Assembly (NCBI RefSeq): GCF_000830005.1 | Contig: NZ_CP010407.1 | Span: forward strand, 4,073,001-4,137,000 | Direction: 5' to 3' | Source: Streptomyces vietnamensis | GTDB taxonomy: Bacteria > Actinomycetota > Actinomycetes > Streptomycetales > Streptomycetaceae | Length of the DNA stretch: 64,000 nucleotides | Part shown: piece after piece, positions 26,129-33,259 of the stretch | Position numbering within the stretch: position 1 is the stretch's first letter | Layout: the number at the start of each line of letters is the position of its first letter | Notes under the pieces: model-generated | The model's database searches: none | The model's input: the letters and a program-made list of their open reading frames with translations, nothing else | Told to the model about the DNA's origin: nothing | Made by a program: the position numbers and the translations under genes

Positions 26129-26977
26129 GTGGATACTCGAAACACTAACGCGCGCACCTCCGCCCCGTCCCGTAACGGCGCGAAAACCCACCCCAAGGCG
26201 CGTACATGCGCCCGCTCCGGAGGCGTCATGCACGACAACGACCGCCACATCCGCCGCTTCACGGTGATCGGCAACCACCTCGCCCAACACCCCGAGCTGT
26301 CGTTGACCGCCATCGGCCTCGCCGCGCACATCCAGTCGCTGCCCACCGGGGCTTGCATCAGCATCAAGACCCTCGAGAGGAAGTTCCCAGAGGGGAGGAA
26401 GCGGATCAGCGACGCGCTGAACGAGCTGGAGGCCCACGGCTATCTGAGCCGGACACGAGAGCGCCTGGCGGACGGGCGGATGGTCACCCGTACGGTCTCG
26501 CGCAACAACCCGGGCCGGAGGGCCGCCGAAGAGCCACCGGCGAAGCCCCAGCTGCCCACCCGCCACCCGGAACCCCAGCGCAAGGCACTCCCCGCCGTCC
26601 CGCAGCCCGCCTACCCGGCCCCGGACCTCCTGGCGACGGCACTCGGGATCCTCAGCGACCTGCGCCGCGACGACCCGCGCCTGTACCTCTCCGCCACCGA
26701 CGTGGACCACCTGGCCCCGGGCGTCGCCACCTGGCTGGAACGCGAGGTCAGCCCAGAGGCCGTACGCCAGATCCTGACCTTCGCCCTGCCCCAGGAAGAA
26801 CTCCGCCGCCCGGCCGCCCTCCTGGCTCACCGCCTGAACGCCCATCTCCCGCCCCTGCCACCCTTCCGGCCGGCGGACCCGGGCGTCCGCCACCCCCTCC
26901 AGAACTGCGACACCTGCGACCGCGCCTACCGAGCCCCCGAACCGGGCACATGCGCCACCTGCACACCGACGACCTGA
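26129..26977 (+). CDS. Helix-turn-helix protein with C-terminal CxxC zinc-ribbon-like tail
   Basis: 282 aa (GTG start). A wHTH of the replication-initiator/DnaD type lies at about residues 34-115 (RFTVIGNHLAQHPELSLTAI; SIKTLERKFPEGRKRISDAL; LEAHGYLSRTRERLADGRMV). A Pro-rich linker follows, then a helical region and a C-terminal CDTCDRAYRAPEPGTCATC that looks zinc-binding. Similar proteins are frequent in Streptomyces accessory regions and mobile elements. The ATG at 26228 (249 aa) has a far better site (CGGAGG) and may be the true start; the upstream 33 codons are Arg-rich. It opens the toxin island. Confidence 0.72.
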   Translation: MDTRNTNARTSAPSRNGAKTHPKARTCARSGGVMHDNDRHIRRFTVIGNHLAQHPELSLTAIGLAAHIQSLPTGACISIKTLERKFPEGRKRISDALNELEAHGYLSRTRERLADGRMVTRTVSRNNPGRRAAEEPPAKPQLPTRHPEPQRKALPAVPQPAYPAPDLLATALGILSDLRRDDPRLYLSATDVDHLAPGVATWLEREVSPEAVRQILTFALPQEELRRPAALLAHRLNAHLPPLPPFRPADPGVRHPLQNCDTCDRAYRAPEPGTCATCTPTT

Positions 26978-27032: not shown

Positions 27033-27536
27033 GTGACTGAGCAGGGGGACGACAGACCGGAGACTCACCAGCTGTCACGGCTGGCGGAGTTGGCAAACGC
27101 GCCGGTGGCGACCGTACAGCCGAAACCCGCACCGGAGCCGGAACCGGCCGACGAGGCAGCGGCAACGGCCCGGCGCGACTTTGCGCGATTGCTCGGCGAA
27201 TTCCGGCGTACCGCCGTGCTCGTGCCGTTCGACGACCACGAGAGTCTCTGGACCGCGGACTTCAACGGGGTGCGGTGGATCTGCGCGTTCTCGGACGAGG
27301 AGGCGCTGGCGCGGTTCGCGGTGGCGCGCGGGGACGCCGAGCGGGAGTGGACGTACCGGACGATCCTCGGCGCGCGGCTTCTCGACGTGATGGTGCCGAT
27401 GCTGCCGGGTCCCGGCGGGGTCGCGCTGGACGCGGGCAGCGCGGACGGGGTGCTGTTTCCGCCGGTGGCGGGGGTCGTCCCGGACGCGGTGGCGGTCGAT
27501 CTCGGGGGTACGGAGACGGGGGCGGGGACACGATGA
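27033..27536 (+). CDS. SseB-like domain protein
   Basis: 167 aa, GTG start. A Pro/Glu/Ala-rich N-terminus is followed by an SseB N-terminal-type domain: LLGEFRRTAVLVPFDDHESL, GVRWICAFSDEEALARFAVA, and VALDAGSADGVLFPPVAGVV. SseB-like proteins are common next to WXG100/ESX-type genes in actinobacteria and may act as accessory or chaperone factors. Its stop overlaps the ATG of the next gene (ATGA), making the first step of a three-gene coupled operon ending in the RHS protein. Confidence 0.78.
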   Translation: MTEQGDDRPETHQLSRLAELANAPVATVQPKPAPEPEPADEAAATARRDFARLLGEFRRTAVLVPFDDHESLWTADFNGVRWICAFSDEEALARFAVARGDAEREWTYRTILGARLLDVMVPMLPGPGGVALDAGSADGVLFPPVAGVVPDAVAVDLGGTETGAGTR

Positions 27537-28117
27537 GCGGGAACGAGCCACATCTCGCGGTGCCGGCGGATGCGCTGGCGGCGATAGCGAAGGGCATCGA
27601 CCTGGCGCATGCCGAGCTGAAGGATCTCGGGATGATCGGCGAGGCGTCGGCGGGCCGGGGGTTCTCGGATCTCGCCCTGTCCGGTCTGGAGCTGGGGCAC
27701 GGCGGCCTGACGTCGCGGTTCAAGACGTTCTGCGAGCGCTGGGAGTGGGGCGTCCGCGCGCTGACCATGCGGGGGAACCAGTTCGCCGTCGGGGTCGGCC
27801 TGTCCGCGGGATCGTTCGCGGAGCACGAGCGGTACGTCAAGGACTCGATCAAGATCGTCGCGAACGCCGTCAACGGCAACCCGCACCTGTCCGAGGACGA
27901 GGTCAAGGAGATGAGCTGGGAGACCATCCGCGACCAGCACGCGTGGGACAACGCGGACGGGAGCGAGGAGTCGTTCAGGAAGGCTCAGGAAGAGGTCGAG
28001 CAGACCTGGAAGAACACCGGCGACGACGTCGTGGGCGAGAAGCTCAAGGCCGAGTTCCGCCCGAACAAGGCGACCATCGAGCAGGCTGATCAGCCGCGTT
28101 GGGGGGACGGCCGCTGA
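27533..28117 (+). CDS. Helical T7SS-type protein of the RHS operon
   Basis: 194 aa, no signal peptide. Predominantly amphipathic helical with a WxG-like turn (CERWEWGVRAL at about residues 66-76) and a long charged C-terminus (SFRKAQEEVEQTWKNTGDDV). Overlaps the SseB-like gene by 4 nt and the RHS gene by TGATG, so all three are translationally coupled. This suggests it is a secretion partner or adaptor of the RHS protein, like ESX-type pairs. The family name is not known to me. Confidence 0.72.
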   Translation: MSGNEPHLAVPADALAAIAKGIDLAHAELKDLGMIGEASAGRGFSDLALSGLELGHGGLTSRFKTFCERWEWGVRALTMRGNQFAVGVGLSAGSFAEHERYVKDSIKIVANAVNGNPHLSEDEVKEMSWETIRDQHAWDNADGSEESFRKAQEEVEQTWKNTGDDVVGEKLKAEFRPNKATIEQADQPRWGDGR

Positions 28118-31100
28118 TGGTGGACTGGGGCGGTTGGGTCGACAAGGGGATCGACAAGATCGGCGACGGCATAGGCGCCGGCATCGACAAGGGCAAGGAG
28201 TTCCTCGGCGAGGGCGTCGACCAGGCGACCGACATGACCGGTCGGATCCTCGACGCCGCGGGTACGCACGACTGGGCGGACGCGGTCGAGGACTGGGGTG
28301 ACAAGACCGCTTCCTCCCTGGGCGCAGAGGTCGGGGAGCAGCAGCTCGGGCAGACGGAGCAGGCGGACGAGCTCGTCCACGGCAAGCCGGAGAAGATCGC
28401 CGAGTCGGTGAAGAACCTCCGGGACTTCCAGAGGGCGTTCGACCTCGTCGGCGGCGGGATGAAGAAGCTGGACGCCGGTCACTGGAAGGGCGCGGCGGCG
28501 GACGCGTTCCGGTCGGCGTTCGAGACCCTGCCGACCGACTGGCTGCAGGCCGCCGACGCGATGGAGAACGCGGCCAGGGCGCTGGAGACGTACTCCCACG
28601 CGATCGTGAGCGCGCAGGGCAAGGCGCGCGAGGCGATAGCCCTGTACAAGGAGGGCGATGCGGACTCCAAGGCGGCCACCGAGACGTACGAGAAGAAGGT
28701 CGCCGCCTACAAGGCGGCGAGCAGCACCGACAGCCCGCTCCCCGACCCCGGGGATTTCTCCGACCCCGGCACGGCCAAGCGGAAGCGCGCCCAGGAGATC
28801 CTGAACGACGCGCGGAAGGCGCGCGACGAGGCCGCGGAGTCGGCGAAGGCGGCGGTCGGTGCGGCCCTCGCCCATGCGCCCAAGGAGCCGACGGGGCGCG
28901 AGCGGGTCAAGGCCGAGCTGATGGACTACGGCGTCGGCACGAGCATCGAGCTGGCCCACTTCAGCGGTGGCGTCGTCAAGGGCGGGGCCGGCCTGGTCGA
29001 CTTCGTCCGCTCGGTCAACCCGACCGACGTATACAACATGACCCACCCGGCGGAGTACTACAAGGGCGTCAACATGACGCTCGCCGGCCTGGTGTCCACG
29101 GTCGCGAACCCGGACAGGGCGCTGAAGAACGCCTGGGACTCGGCGAAGGGCGACCCGTCGGAGTTCCTCGGCCGGCTCCTGCCGGAGCTGATCGGCTCGA
29201 AGGGCACCGGCCTGGTGCGCGGAGGCGTACGCGCCGCGGTGAAGAACGGCACGAAGCACCTGCCGGAGGTGAAGAAGCCGGGCGGTGTCCGCGGGGATCA
29301 GGGGAAGGATCCGCACACCGCCGGCAAGACGGGCCGCGAGACGAAGTGCAAGAAGGACCCGATCGACATCGCGACGGGCCGGATGCTGCTGCCGCAGACC
29401 GACATCGCGCTGCCCGGTTCGCTGCCCCTCGTGTTCCGGCGCACGTTCGACTCCTCGCGCCGCTCGGGGCGCTGGTTCGGTCCGACGTGGTCGAGCACGG
29501 TGGACCAGAGGCTGGAGATCGATTCGGAAGGCGTCGTCTTCAGCTGCGACGAGGGCAGCCTCCTGGCCTATCCGCATCCGGCGCCGGGCGTCCCGGTCAT
29601 GCCCACGCACGGCCGGCAGTGGCCGCTGGACCGGGTGGAGGACGGCTACACGATCACGGACCCCGACAGCGGCACAGTCCGGCACTTCACCGACCACAGC
29701 GACGAACTCGCGCTCCTGGCCCAGATGGACGACCGCAACGGCCGCTGGATCGCATTCGAGTACGACGAGTCGGGCGCCCCGACGGCGATCGTCCACCACG
29801 GCGGGTATCACCTGAAGCTCACGACGAGCGAAGGGCATGTGACCGCCCTTCACCTCGCGGACCAGGAGATCCTGCGCTACGGCTACACGGACGGCCACCT
29901 GACCGAGGTCACCAACTCCTCGGGCAGACCCCTCCTCTTCGGCTGCGACGAGCACGGCCGCATCACCTCGTGGACGGACACCAACGGAAGCCGCTTCGAC
30001 TACGTCTACGACGACCAGGACCGCTGCACGTACCAGTCGGGCACGAACGGCCACCTGGAAGCGACGTTCACCTGGGACGACGTGGACCCGGCCACCGGCC
30101 TCCGCATCACCACCCTCACCGACGGCCTGGGTCACACCGAACGCCACCTGATCAACGACCGCGCGCAGGTGGTCGCCGAGATCGACGCCCTGGGTGGGGT
30201 CACCCGCTACGCGTACGACCGCCACAACCGCCTGCTGTCGCGGACGGACCCGCTGGGCCACACCGCCCGCACCACCTACGACGACCAGGGCCGGCCGACG
30301 GTACTGGAACGCCCGGACGGACGACAGGCACGGGCGGAGTACGACGAGCACGGCTTCCCGATACGCCTCACCGGCACCGACGGCAACGTCACCCGCCAGA
30401 CCTTCGACGAACGCGGCAACCGCACGTCGGTGACGGCCCCTTCGGGCGCCCGGACGGAGTTCGCGTACGACGAGTCGGGCCGGCTGACGTCGATGACGGA
30501 CCCACTGGGCGCCACGACGCGACTGGTCGTGGACGCCCGCGGCCTCCCTGTCGAGGTCACCGACCCACTGGGCGCGGTCACCCGCTACTCCTACGACGCC
30601 TTCGGCCGCACGGTCCAGGTCACGGACCCCCTGGGCGCGGTCACACGCCTGGAGTGGACGGTCGAAGGCCAGCCATCGAAACGCACTGCCCCAGACGGGA
30701 CGGTGGAGTCCTGGACGTACGACGGCGAGGGCAACTGCCTCAGCCACACGGACGCGCTGGGCGGCACGACGAGCTTCACGTACACCGACTTCGACCTGCT
30801 GACCTCCCGCACGGGCCCGGACGGGGTCCGCTACGAGTTCGCCCACGACTCGAACCTGCGCCTGACGAGGGTGACCAATCCCCAGGGCCTGACGTGGGAC
30901 TACGCGTACGACGCGGCGGGCCGACTGGTCGAGGAGACGGACTTCGACGACCGGACTCTGGGCTACGCGTACGACGAGTCGGGCCGACTCACCTCCCGCA
31001 CGAACGGCCTCGGGCAGGAGATCAGCTTCGAGCGCGACAGCCTGGGCCGCATAGTCCGCAAGGACGCCGAAGGTGCGGTCAGCACGTACGAGTACGACGT

Positions 31101-32799
31101 CTTCGACCAGCTGGCGACCGCGACCGGCCCGGACGCGACGCTGGCGCGCCTCCGGGACCGCTACGGCCGCCTCGTCTCGGAGACCGTGAACGGCCGCACG
31201 CTCTCGTTCGAGTACGACGCCGTGGGGCGCCGTACAGGGCGGACGACACCGGGTGGTTCGAAGAGCACGTGGTCGTACGACGCGGCGGGCCGCCGTACCG
31301 AACTGACCTCGTCGGGCCGAACATTGTCCTTCACTCACGACGCCCTGGGCCGCGAAACATCCCGCCGAATAGGCGACTTCGCGAACCTGTCGTCCTCGTT
31401 CGACACGATGGGCCGCCTCACCGCGCAGGAGGTCACGGGCGGTTCGGGCCGCCGTCTTCAGCACCGCGCGTACACGTACCGCGCGGACGGCGGCCTCATC
31501 GGCATCACGGACGAACTCTCTGGCGCCCGCCGCTTCGACCTGGACCAGGCGGGACGAGTGCTGGCCGTCCACGCCCACAACTGGACGGAGCGGTACGCCT
31601 ACGACGACGCCGGCAACCAGACGGAGGCGTCCTGGCCGTCGACGCACCCGTCCCACTCGTCGACGGGGGCACGTGCGTATACAGGGACGCGGATCACGAC
31701 CGCGGGCTCCGTCCGCTATGAACACGACGCCCAGGGCCGGATCGTCCTACGCCAGAAGACCCGCCTCTCCCGCAAGCCCGACACCTGGCGCTACGAGTGG
31801 GACGCGGAAGACCGCCTGACCTCGGTGACGACACCGGACGGCACGGTGTGGCGCTACGGGTACGACCCCCTGGGCCGCCGAATATCGAAGCAGTCCCCTT
31901 TCGAGACAGTCCACTTCACCTGGGACGGCGCCACTCTCTGCGAGCAGACGACCGAGGACATCACCCTCACCTGGGACCACGCAGGCCTGCGCCCCCTGGC
32001 CCAGACGGAACGCCGCACGGTCCCGGACTCCACCGACGAGCGCTTCTTCGCCATCGTCACCGACCTGGTCGGCACCCCGACGGAACTGGTCTCCGAGTCG
32101 GGCGACGTGGCCTGGCGCACCCGCGCAACGCTCTGGGGCACGACCACATGGACCCGCGACGCAACGGCCTACACCCCACTCCGCTTCCCGGGCCAATACT
32201 TCGACCCGGAATCGGGCCTCCACTACAACCACTTCCGCTACTACGACCCGGAATCGGCCCGCTACCTCTCCCCGGACCCTCTAGGCCTCGCCCCGGCCCC
32301 CAACCCGGCAACTTACGTCCACAATCCGCACACGTGGAGCGACCCGCTGGGCCTTGCGCCCGACGGGTGCCCTCCGAAGGGCGAGCTTTCAAACCCGTTC
32401 GAGAAGAGAGTCGACGCAGAACGAGCAGCCTTCGAAGCTGCTGGTGTTCCATACGGTGAATCCCCACTGGCCGAATGGACCGTGGTCGGCGACAAGAACC
32501 TCAAGCATGTCCCTGGGTATATTTATTCAAGCGACCGAGCTCACTGGGGTCATTTCAGACAGTTCGAGACCGAAAATGGATCCCGCGTAATCGTGGAGCA
32601 CACACACGACCCCGCTGGAACGCACTTCCACGCAGGAAAGCCGAAGAAACCTAGCGATAGATCCTTCGTGAACTTCGGATGGGACAATCAAAAGGTGATA
32701 CGCCCCGACGGCACAAACGGCTATCCTGAAAACATGGAGAGGTACCTCAAGATAAACAAGGAAGGCGGGGATCACCATTTCTTCTACAACGGGGAATGA
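28117..32799 (+). CDS. WXG/DUF6531/RHS-repeat polymorphic toxin
   Basis: 1560 aa. Residues 1-300 are helical with a WXG100-like motif W123-K-G125 (GHWKGAAADAFR) and no Sec signal, pointing to type VII-like secretion. DUF6531 begins near 412 (KKDPIDIATGRMLLPQTDIA). About 20 RHS/YD repeats (consensus YAYDxxGRL) span about 600-1350, forming the toxin shell. The core ends with YTPLRFPGQYFDPESGLHYN and RYLSPDPLGLAP, then DPLGLAP at about 1408. The tip (about 1413-1560) is a compact His-rich domain (VIVEHTHDPAGTHFHAGKPK; GGDHHFFY), probably a nuclease-like toxin of unassigned family. The tip DNA is much less GC-rich than the shell, a sign of tip exchange. Confidence 0.9.
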   Translation: MVDWGGWVDKGIDKIGDGIGAGIDKGKEFLGEGVDQATDMTGRILDAAGTHDWADAVEDWGDKTASSLGAEVGEQQLGQTEQADELVHGKPEKIAESVKNLRDFQRAFDLVGGGMKKLDAGHWKGAAADAFRSAFETLPTDWLQAADAMENAARALETYSHAIVSAQGKAREAIALYKEGDADSKAATETYEKKVAAYKAASSTDSPLPDPGDFSDPGTAKRKRAQEILNDARKARDEAAESAKAAVGAALAHAPKEPTGRERVKAELMDYGVGTSIELAHFSGGVVKGGAGLVDFVRSVNPTDVYNMTHPAEYYKGVNMTLAGLVSTVANPDRALKNAWDSAKGDPSEFLGRLLPELIGSKGTGLVRGGVRAAVKNGTKHLPEVKKPGGVRGDQGKDPHTAGKTGRETKCKKDPIDIATGRMLLPQTDIALPGSLPLVFRRTFDSSRRSGRWFGPTWSSTVDQRLEIDSEGVVFSCDEGSLLAYPHPAPGVPVMPTHGRQWPLDRVEDGYTITDPDSGTVRHFTDHSDELALLAQMDDRNGRWIAFEYDESGAPTAIVHHGGYHLKLTTSEGHVTALHLADQEILRYGYTDGHLTEVTNSSGRPLLFGCDEHGRITSWTDTNGSRFDYVYDDQDRCTYQSGTNGHLEATFTWDDVDPATGLRITTLTDGLGHTERHLINDRAQVVAEIDALGGVTRYAYDRHNRLLSRTDPLGHTARTTYDDQGRPTVLERPDGRQARAEYDEHGFPIRLTGTDGNVTRQTFDERGNRTSVTAPSGARTEFAYDESGRLTSMTDPLGATTRLVVDARGLPVEVTDPLGAVTRYSYDAFGRTVQVTDPLGAVTRLEWTVEGQPSKRTAPDGTVESWTYDGEGNCLSHTDALGGTTSFTYTDFDLLTSRTGPDGVRYEFAHDSNLRLTRVTNPQGLTWDYAYDAAGRLVEETDFDDRTLGYAYDESGRLTSRTNGLGQEISFERDSLGRIVRKDAEGAVSTYEYDVFDQLATATGPDATLARLRDRYGRLVSETVNGRTLSFEYDAVGRRTGRTTPGGSKSTWSYDAAGRRTELTSSGRTLSFTHDALGRETSRRIGDFANLSSSFDTMGRLTAQEVTGGSGRRLQHRAYTYRADGGLIGITDELSGARRFDLDQAGRVLAVHAHNWTERYAYDDAGNQTEASWPSTHPSHSSTGARAYTGTRITTAGSVRYEHDAQGRIVLRQKTRLSRKPDTWRYEWDAEDRLTSVTTPDGTVWRYGYDPLGRRISKQSPFETVHFTWDGATLCEQTTEDITLTWDHAGLRPLAQTERRTVPDSTDERFFAIVTDLVGTPTELVSESGDVAWRTRATLWGTTTWTRDATAYTPLRFPGQYFDPESGLHYNHFRYYDPESARYLSPDPLGLAPAPNPATYVHNPHTWSDPLGLAPDGCPPKGELSNPFEKRVDAERAAFEAAGVPYGESPLAEWTVVGDKNLKHVPGYIYSSDRAHWGHFRQFETENGSRVIVEHTHDPAGTHFHAGKPKKPSDRSFVNFGWDNQKVIRPDGTNGYPENMERYLKINKEGGDHHFFYNGE

Positions 32800-32890
32800 A
32801 GAATCTGCCAGACCAGAGTGGCAACAGGAGCTCGAGAAGAGCGGTCTCACTATTCTGGATCAAGCAGTACCAGCCGGATTTCCTGGGGTC

Positions 32891-33259
32891 ATGTCGGCGA
32901 TCTACGCCGTGAACGGAGTTGAAGTAGAGCCCAAGGTGTCGATCAGCGATTCGCTGCCTGACGCCGCAGCAGAGCTGGACCGCCAATGGGCGATCCAGGC
33001 AGAATCCAGTCACCTGGTATCAGGCGACAGGGAGTTCTACATCCTGGCTCCAGGCGCACGCGGGCACGAAATCGGATGGGTTCGCGTGAAGGACAACTCC
33101 GGATCGAATCTACCTTCGCGCATCGCGTCTGGCACCGGTGACGCCGCATTCCTGGCCGTTTCGACAAACGGCCGAGTGATGTGTGCTGTATCCACGGAAG
33201 ATGACGAGAAGTGGATCGTCGTGCATCACTTCCCGGCCGAGGGCCCGGGGGCCTCATAA
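32891..33259 (+). CDS. Putative immunity protein to the RHS tip toxin
   Basis: 122 aa from the first ATG, acidic and soluble, directly downstream of the toxin tip on the same strand and in the same lower-GC segment. No family recognised. Protein-like coding continues in frame upstream of this ATG (NEESARPEWQQELEKSGLTI then LDQAVPAGFPGV) back to a stop at 32753, yet no ATG, GTG or TTG occurs in that stretch. An ATT at 32777 preceded by AAGGCGGGG would give 160 aa and overlap the toxin end. So the start is uncertain. A strong terminator follows at 33342. Confidence 0.7.
   Translation: MSAIYAVNGVEVEPKVSISDSLPDAAAELDRQWAIQAESSHLVSGDREFYILAPGARGHEIGWVRVKDNSGSNLPSRIASGTGDAAFLAVSTNGRVMCAVSTEDDEKWIVVHHFPAEGPGAS

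Follow-up and report, generated by a model that had tools for sequence, protein, structure and literature searches.

TseI of Aeromonas, a member of the Pfam family Tox-HNH-EHHH, is a demonstrated DNase that degrades plasmid DNA and needs both H1497 and an HFH motif, according to the parts of the report cited here (PMC7170923). For the Tox-EHHH toxins, Imm8 and Imm50 are listed as immunity families in the cited part of Zhang et al. (2012; PMC3482391). The locus described here lies in a window of 64,000 nt, the whole stretch of DNA that was analysed, from the Streptomyces vietnamensis contig NZ_CP010407.1 (4,073,001 to 4,137,000, forward strand). It encodes an RHS polymorphic toxin with an exchanged tip and a matching immunity gene, and it is a new member of a kind already known.

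The RHS toxin and its exchanged tip

The presumed toxin operon is flanked by an HTH_36 gene (26129-26977) on one side and, beyond the immunity frame, by aspS on the other. Its first gene (27033..27536, plus strand) encodes an SseB-domain protein (PF07179, E 4.6e-5, 24 bits compared to a cut-off of 21), and the stop codon of this gene is overlapped by the ATG of the next (ATGA; 27533..28117, plus strand). The latter encodes a 194-aa protein with no Pfam match, which may be regarded as a candidate secretion partner, and its stop codon is in turn overlapped by the ATG of the RHS toxin (TGATG), so that both earlier junctions of the operon overlap. The aspS gene was 96.7% identical to the copy at the S. 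zaomyceticus locus (L002), the best named match. A scan of the region found no promoter, and two terminator-like sites compared to 2.8 in shuffles. One terminator-like hairpin, in a region where the number of such sites is at chance level, lies on the minus strand at 32805-32824, just 3' of the toxin stop and within the first immunity codons.

The toxin gene (28117-32799, plus strand) runs from ATG 28117 to TGA 32797-32799 and encodes 1560 aa, arranged in the order T7SS_signal, DUF6531, RHS/YD shell, DPLGLAP and tip. When the protein was compared to Pfam, T7SS_signal (PF21725, E 2.7e-92) was found at residues 22-258, followed by DUF6531, 18 RHS-repeat stretches and a Tox-HNH-EHHH tip above cut-off; NCBIfam gave the RHS core domain. 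EccC (TIGR03924), the part of the type VII machinery that was searched for, had one match above cut-off in the strain's own genome (871 bits) and none in 14 control genomes. With PF21725 and EccC, both an N-terminal signal domain and the machinery in the genome, by which a T7SS substrate was recognised, were found. The operon thus appears to bear the signature of type VII export, and the toxin would presumably leave the cell by that route.

The G+C content was 69.7% in the shell (28117-32354), 54.8% in the tip (32355-32796) and 59.6% downstream of the toxin (32800-33259), compared to 72.2% in the window, and fell to 27 of 60 bases at 32641-32700. Stretches of 445 bases as low in GC as the tip made up 0.3% of the window (step 50), and all those listed overlapped the tip. 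GC3 dropped from 0.92 in the shell to 0.42 in the tip. The open reading frame, these GC figures and the homologues described below bear out the proposal of an earlier note, made from the DNA letters, of a polymorphic RHS toxin with a low-GC exchanged tip and an adjoining immunity gene.

The same note had been unable to assign the tip to a named toxin family, and had given a match to a known toxin domain as a result that would speak against it. Such a match was found: the tip alone (32362..32796, plus strand) matched Tox-HNH-EHHH (PF15657) with E 1.5e-8 and 35.3 bits, compared to a curated cut-off of 25, and the idea of a tip of unknown family was dropped. The motif residues are E1494-H1495 (32596-32601), H1503-F-H1505 (32623-32631) and H1553-H1554 (32773-32778), all on the plus strand, which provide the [ED]H and two further histidines that define the family. 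In an alignment of 26 tips, the strain's own among them and three of them broken, 25 had EH and HFH, and all 26 had the terminal HH. It is the only tip of its family in the genome, and a PDB sequence search with it returned nothing meaningful. A tip that had no previous assignment is now placed in a family with a demonstrated DNase. By analogy with TseI, DNase activity would be expected of it, and it most likely would cut the DNA of competing bacteria. A 34%-identical tip was also seen at NZ_CP134663.1:2233145-2233516, in a 4.9-Mb E. coli record of the plasmid collection with no listed feature under the match.

The immunity family and its pairing with the tip

The immunity frame has family homology over 32798..33259 on the plus strand. 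Searches with the immunity protein (query P0001) gave matches, many of them weak, in 69 of 392 genus genomes, the strain's own counted, at E values of at most 0.001, and the tip had matches in 20 of the 392, counted likewise. An immunity homologue lay directly 3' of the tip in the strain's own genome and in 15 of the 19 other tip-bearing genomes (the pair at L062 was missed by tblastn and found by the genome-wide P0001 search). These 15 genomes hold the 15 best-scoring tips; the four tips with no adjoining homologue (L069-L072) had the weakest E-values, at 31-41% identity. As judged from this pairing, the downstream gene is the cognate immunity partner of the tip, and its product presumably binds the tip. 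No second immunity homologue was found in the strain's own genome.

When 25 immunity members from the loci at hand were aligned (alignment A1; short, broken and duplicate ones omitted) and compared to Pfam, no significant match was obtained (best E 0.044); three families, none of them an Imm family, were touched by one member each. The comparison to NCBIfam likewise gave no significant match (best E 0.042). A partner immunity family is thereby defined that has no model in the two libraries scanned. A PDB sequence search with the immunity protein gave nothing meaningful, and an AlphaFold model from a two-sequence alignment (the window and L002) had a mean pLDDT of 33 and was discarded. In the plasmid collection, five distant records matched the immunity protein and one matched the tip. 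Neither this immunity family nor a start-less immunity gene was mentioned in the titles and abstract openings of the literature matches listed.

The immunity domain also occurs within longer ORFs: with an N-terminal part lacking assignment at L002:5605-6426, with HEAT/LRV-like repeats (below cut-off) at L029:1396-3312, and with a C-terminal extension at L067:1935-2762. An immunity-like domain lies under a PE-PGRS family protein annotation on two Streptomyces plasmids (matches H2 and H3).

The missing immunity start

Reading in the immunity frame is uninterrupted between 32756 and the stop codon ending at 33259, and no ATG, GTG or TTG precedes 32891; this observation of the earlier note, together with the ATT it pointed to at 32777, was confirmed. 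No start codon was present over 45 codons, as was also the case in 13% of shuffles of that stretch, so the missing start is unusual because of the comparison with relatives and not because a start-less stretch is rare in itself. Homology to other immunity proteins began at P0001 residues 12-20, around the toxin stop, in most of the best matches, with earlier beginnings at residues 6, 8 and 9 in L019, L103 and L104, respectively. In the 25-member alignment, a GLxV motif with an invariant L precedes ATG 32891. When the 26 codons before 32891 were compared to S. zaomyceticus (L002), 6, 6 and 18 differences were found at codon positions 1, 2 and 3, respectively, with 10 residues changed; in the other 115 immunity codons, the differences were 30, 23 and 60, with 39 residues changed. 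The pattern before 32891 indicates that this stretch evolves as coding sequence. The earlier note had extended immunity coding upstream to 32756: the homology over approximately 28 codons before 32891 upholds one part of this, whereas 32756-32797 belongs to the 3'-terminal part of the toxin gene, read in another frame. Homologues starting at the ATG with no similarity upstream, which the note had named as counter-evidence, were not what was found, as upstream similarity exists.

An in-frame ATG, GTG or TTG lying no more than about 12 codons ahead of the conserved W region was present in 22 of 23 relatives with the tip upstream (in the first set 13 of 15 by script plus L062 by eye, and in the second set 8 of 8, counting L111 and L116, whose tips look broken). 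In the sole exception, L066 (G375), the start region looks normal and the immunity frame downstream of it is shifted. Such a shift was also seen in L109 (G692), which has a toxin tail and was left out of the 23 as its tip was not found. In L067, the immunity ATG overlaps the toxin stop as ATGA in frame, with a Shine-Dalgarno (SD)-like pairing of -10.8 kcal/mol. The two nearest tips, L054 and L055, have the immunity gene in the window's phase relative to the toxin, with an ATG 37 and 34 nt behind the stop, respectively. L019 (G059; position 1537, reverse strand) has no canonical start near the domain and an ATT four codons before the W, with a pairing of -11.6. Among related homologues with no tip found alongside, L020 and L107 lack a canonical start near the domain, and L108 has one nine codons before it. 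A DNA search of 100 relatives gave 16 matches, the strain's own counted, none of which closely covers the tip-immunity junction.

In the window, an ATG lies over the toxin stop (32796..32798, plus strand), off the immunity frame by one base, and opens 38 codons to TGA 32910-32912. The distance from it to the W codon, 23 nt, falls in the range seen in the family, and its position at the family's usual place, one base off, suggests a local lesion as the first reading. The whole arrangement is best explained, with about an even chance of being right, as a polymorphic toxin in which a small local change in the strain's lineage removed the in-frame immunity start. The RHS shell carries a Tox-HNH-EHHH nuclease tip and the next gene encodes the cognate immunity protein, whose ancestral start most likely lay at the toxin stop or immediately 3' of it, like those of the relatives. 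After the proposed change, of which one genome of the species gives the picture, the overlapping ATG is one base out of register and the full-length immunity protein has no canonical start; the outcome could be no protein at all, a shortened product beginning at ATG 32891 or a small amount made by non-AUG initiation, and protection may be weakened or made unusually in this strain. The ATG-to-W distance, the in-frame overlap in L067 and the two overlapping junctions earlier in the operon all favour this lesion. Against it, SD-like pairing at ATG 32796 is nearly absent (-1.1 kcal/mol compared to -5.8 to -12.6 at 13 relatives' starts), and the phase of L054 and L055 fits an in-frame deletion instead. 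The overlap could also be fortuitous, as ATGA overlaps occur at 16 of 223 coding-like ORF ends and chance is therefore not negligible. Moreover, the remainder of the immunity frame is undamaged and the genome has no other homologue to protect it, so that losing immunity completely next to an intact toxin would carry a high cost.

Non-AUG initiation and in-frame deletion appear to be the leading rivals to this lesion. It is fairly unlikely that immunity is made full-length from ATT 32777 or by another unusual event within the toxin gene end, tying its synthesis to tip translation; a full-length product from a non-AUG start, most likely this ATT inside the toxin gene and coupled to toxin translation, is likewise a doubtful reading. 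The ATT (32777..32779, plus strand) is in the immunity frame, and the SD-like pairing upstream of it (-11.8 kcal/mol) beats 12 of the 13 relatives' starts. Of 562 ATT triplets in 300 kb of the strain's own chromosome, 1.6% have pairing as strong as this. The ATT of L019, with its similar pairing, hints that ATT starts recur in the immunity family, and the lack of a second homologue in the genome also favours such a start. However, initiation at ATT is very rare, and the stretch with SD-like pairing also codes for conserved residues of the toxin. The same site was located in 10 of 11 relatives, where it pairs at -5.4 to -10.0, and all ten have an ATG or GTG of their own; the immunity frame upstream of the toxin stop also has no family homology. 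An in-frame deletion of the spacer with its start codon, which would make the ATG over the toxin stop a matter of chance, agrees with the toxin-immunity phase shared with L054 and L055, whose spacers exceed that of the window by multiples of three, and with the near absence of SD-like pairing at ATG 32796. It is nevertheless rather unlikely, as the distance between that ATG and the W is typical of the family and the other operon junctions overlap alike.

A sequencing or assembly error is improbable. The genome that holds the frame-shifted L066 is listed at 55% completeness, so the collection may contain errors, but no run longer than two bases occurs between ATG 32796 and the W codon, and no convincing coding indel was found in about 145 kb compared to G307, with none flagged in 94.7 kb compared to S. 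zaomyceticus. Frameshift-like signals in the strain's own genome numbered 0 of 89 coding-like ORFs (94.7 kb) in the comparison with S. zaomyceticus and 4 of 147 (145 kb) in that with G307; of these four, a 542-aa ORF is whole in this genome and disrupted in G307, and the remaining three fall at the edges of ORFs, where coding is not assured. In the reverse comparisons, 1 of 84 was flagged in S. zaomyceticus and 4 of 146 in G307, and raw in-frame stop signals against the strain's own genome numbered five and six, respectively. On these indel comparisons an error was set aside as first choice, and one exactly at the immunity junction is unlikely. A +1 ribosomal frameshift at the toxin stop, giving a toxin-immunity fusion, would suit the immunity frame being +1 of the toxin frame there, but it is most improbable given the separate in-frame start in 22 of 23 relatives and the failure to see a slippery or RF2-like site by eye. 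It is scarcely credible that a short immunity protein truly starts at ATG 32891..32893 (plus strand). No in-frame ATG precedes it, and with the 38-codon ORF of ATG 32796 ending close by at 32912, reinitiation could be imagined, but the SD-like pairing of ATG 32891 is weak (-3.3) and the conserved N-terminal part with GLxV and its invariant L would be lost. As the ancestral start, this ATG was ruled out by the family homology over the approximately 28 codons before it.

The aspS locus and known systems

At the aspS locus of G015 (L080), a shell 79.7% identical to that of the window occurs in the same place with the same operon genes. It is followed by a ribonuclease-like tip resembling PF00545 (below cut-off), a Barstar (PF01337) as immunity and an orphan of the window's own immunity family. 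At the aspS locus of G224 (L081), a partial similar shell carries another tip with no assignment, together with a DUF6086 gene and an orphan immunity homologue. In both genomes, a similar shell is thus joined to a different tip and followed by different genes. Orphan immunity genes also lie beside aspS in G307 and S. zaomyceticus, with no RHS shell in the stretches examined there; S. zaomyceticus has RHS genes elsewhere in its genome. As judged by sequence comparison, the locus beside aspS is a site of ordinary tip exchange at which orphan immunity genes are kept. If the strain does live with an intact toxin and no canonically started immunity protein, it would provide a natural test of the need for immunity or of non-AUG immunity translation.

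Compared to TseI-TsiI of Aeromonas dhakensis, as described in the cited parts of PMC7170923, the locus shares the HFH that is needed in TseI, and the start of TsiI overlaps the last codon and stop of the toxin gene. In contrast to that system, which belongs to T6SS, the present locus points to T7SS, and its overlapping ATG is out of register. The Tox-EHHH toxins of Zhang et al. (2012), in the cited part of PMC3482391, resemble it in their HNH/EndoVII fold with [ED]H, H and H, their RHS carriers, their WXG/T7SS export and their occurrence in Actinobacteria. Imm8 and Imm50 are the partners listed in that part, whereas none of the 25 immunity proteins aligned here matched a Pfam Imm family, Imm8 and Imm50 included, and the present family therefore looks like a further partner family for Tox-EHHH.
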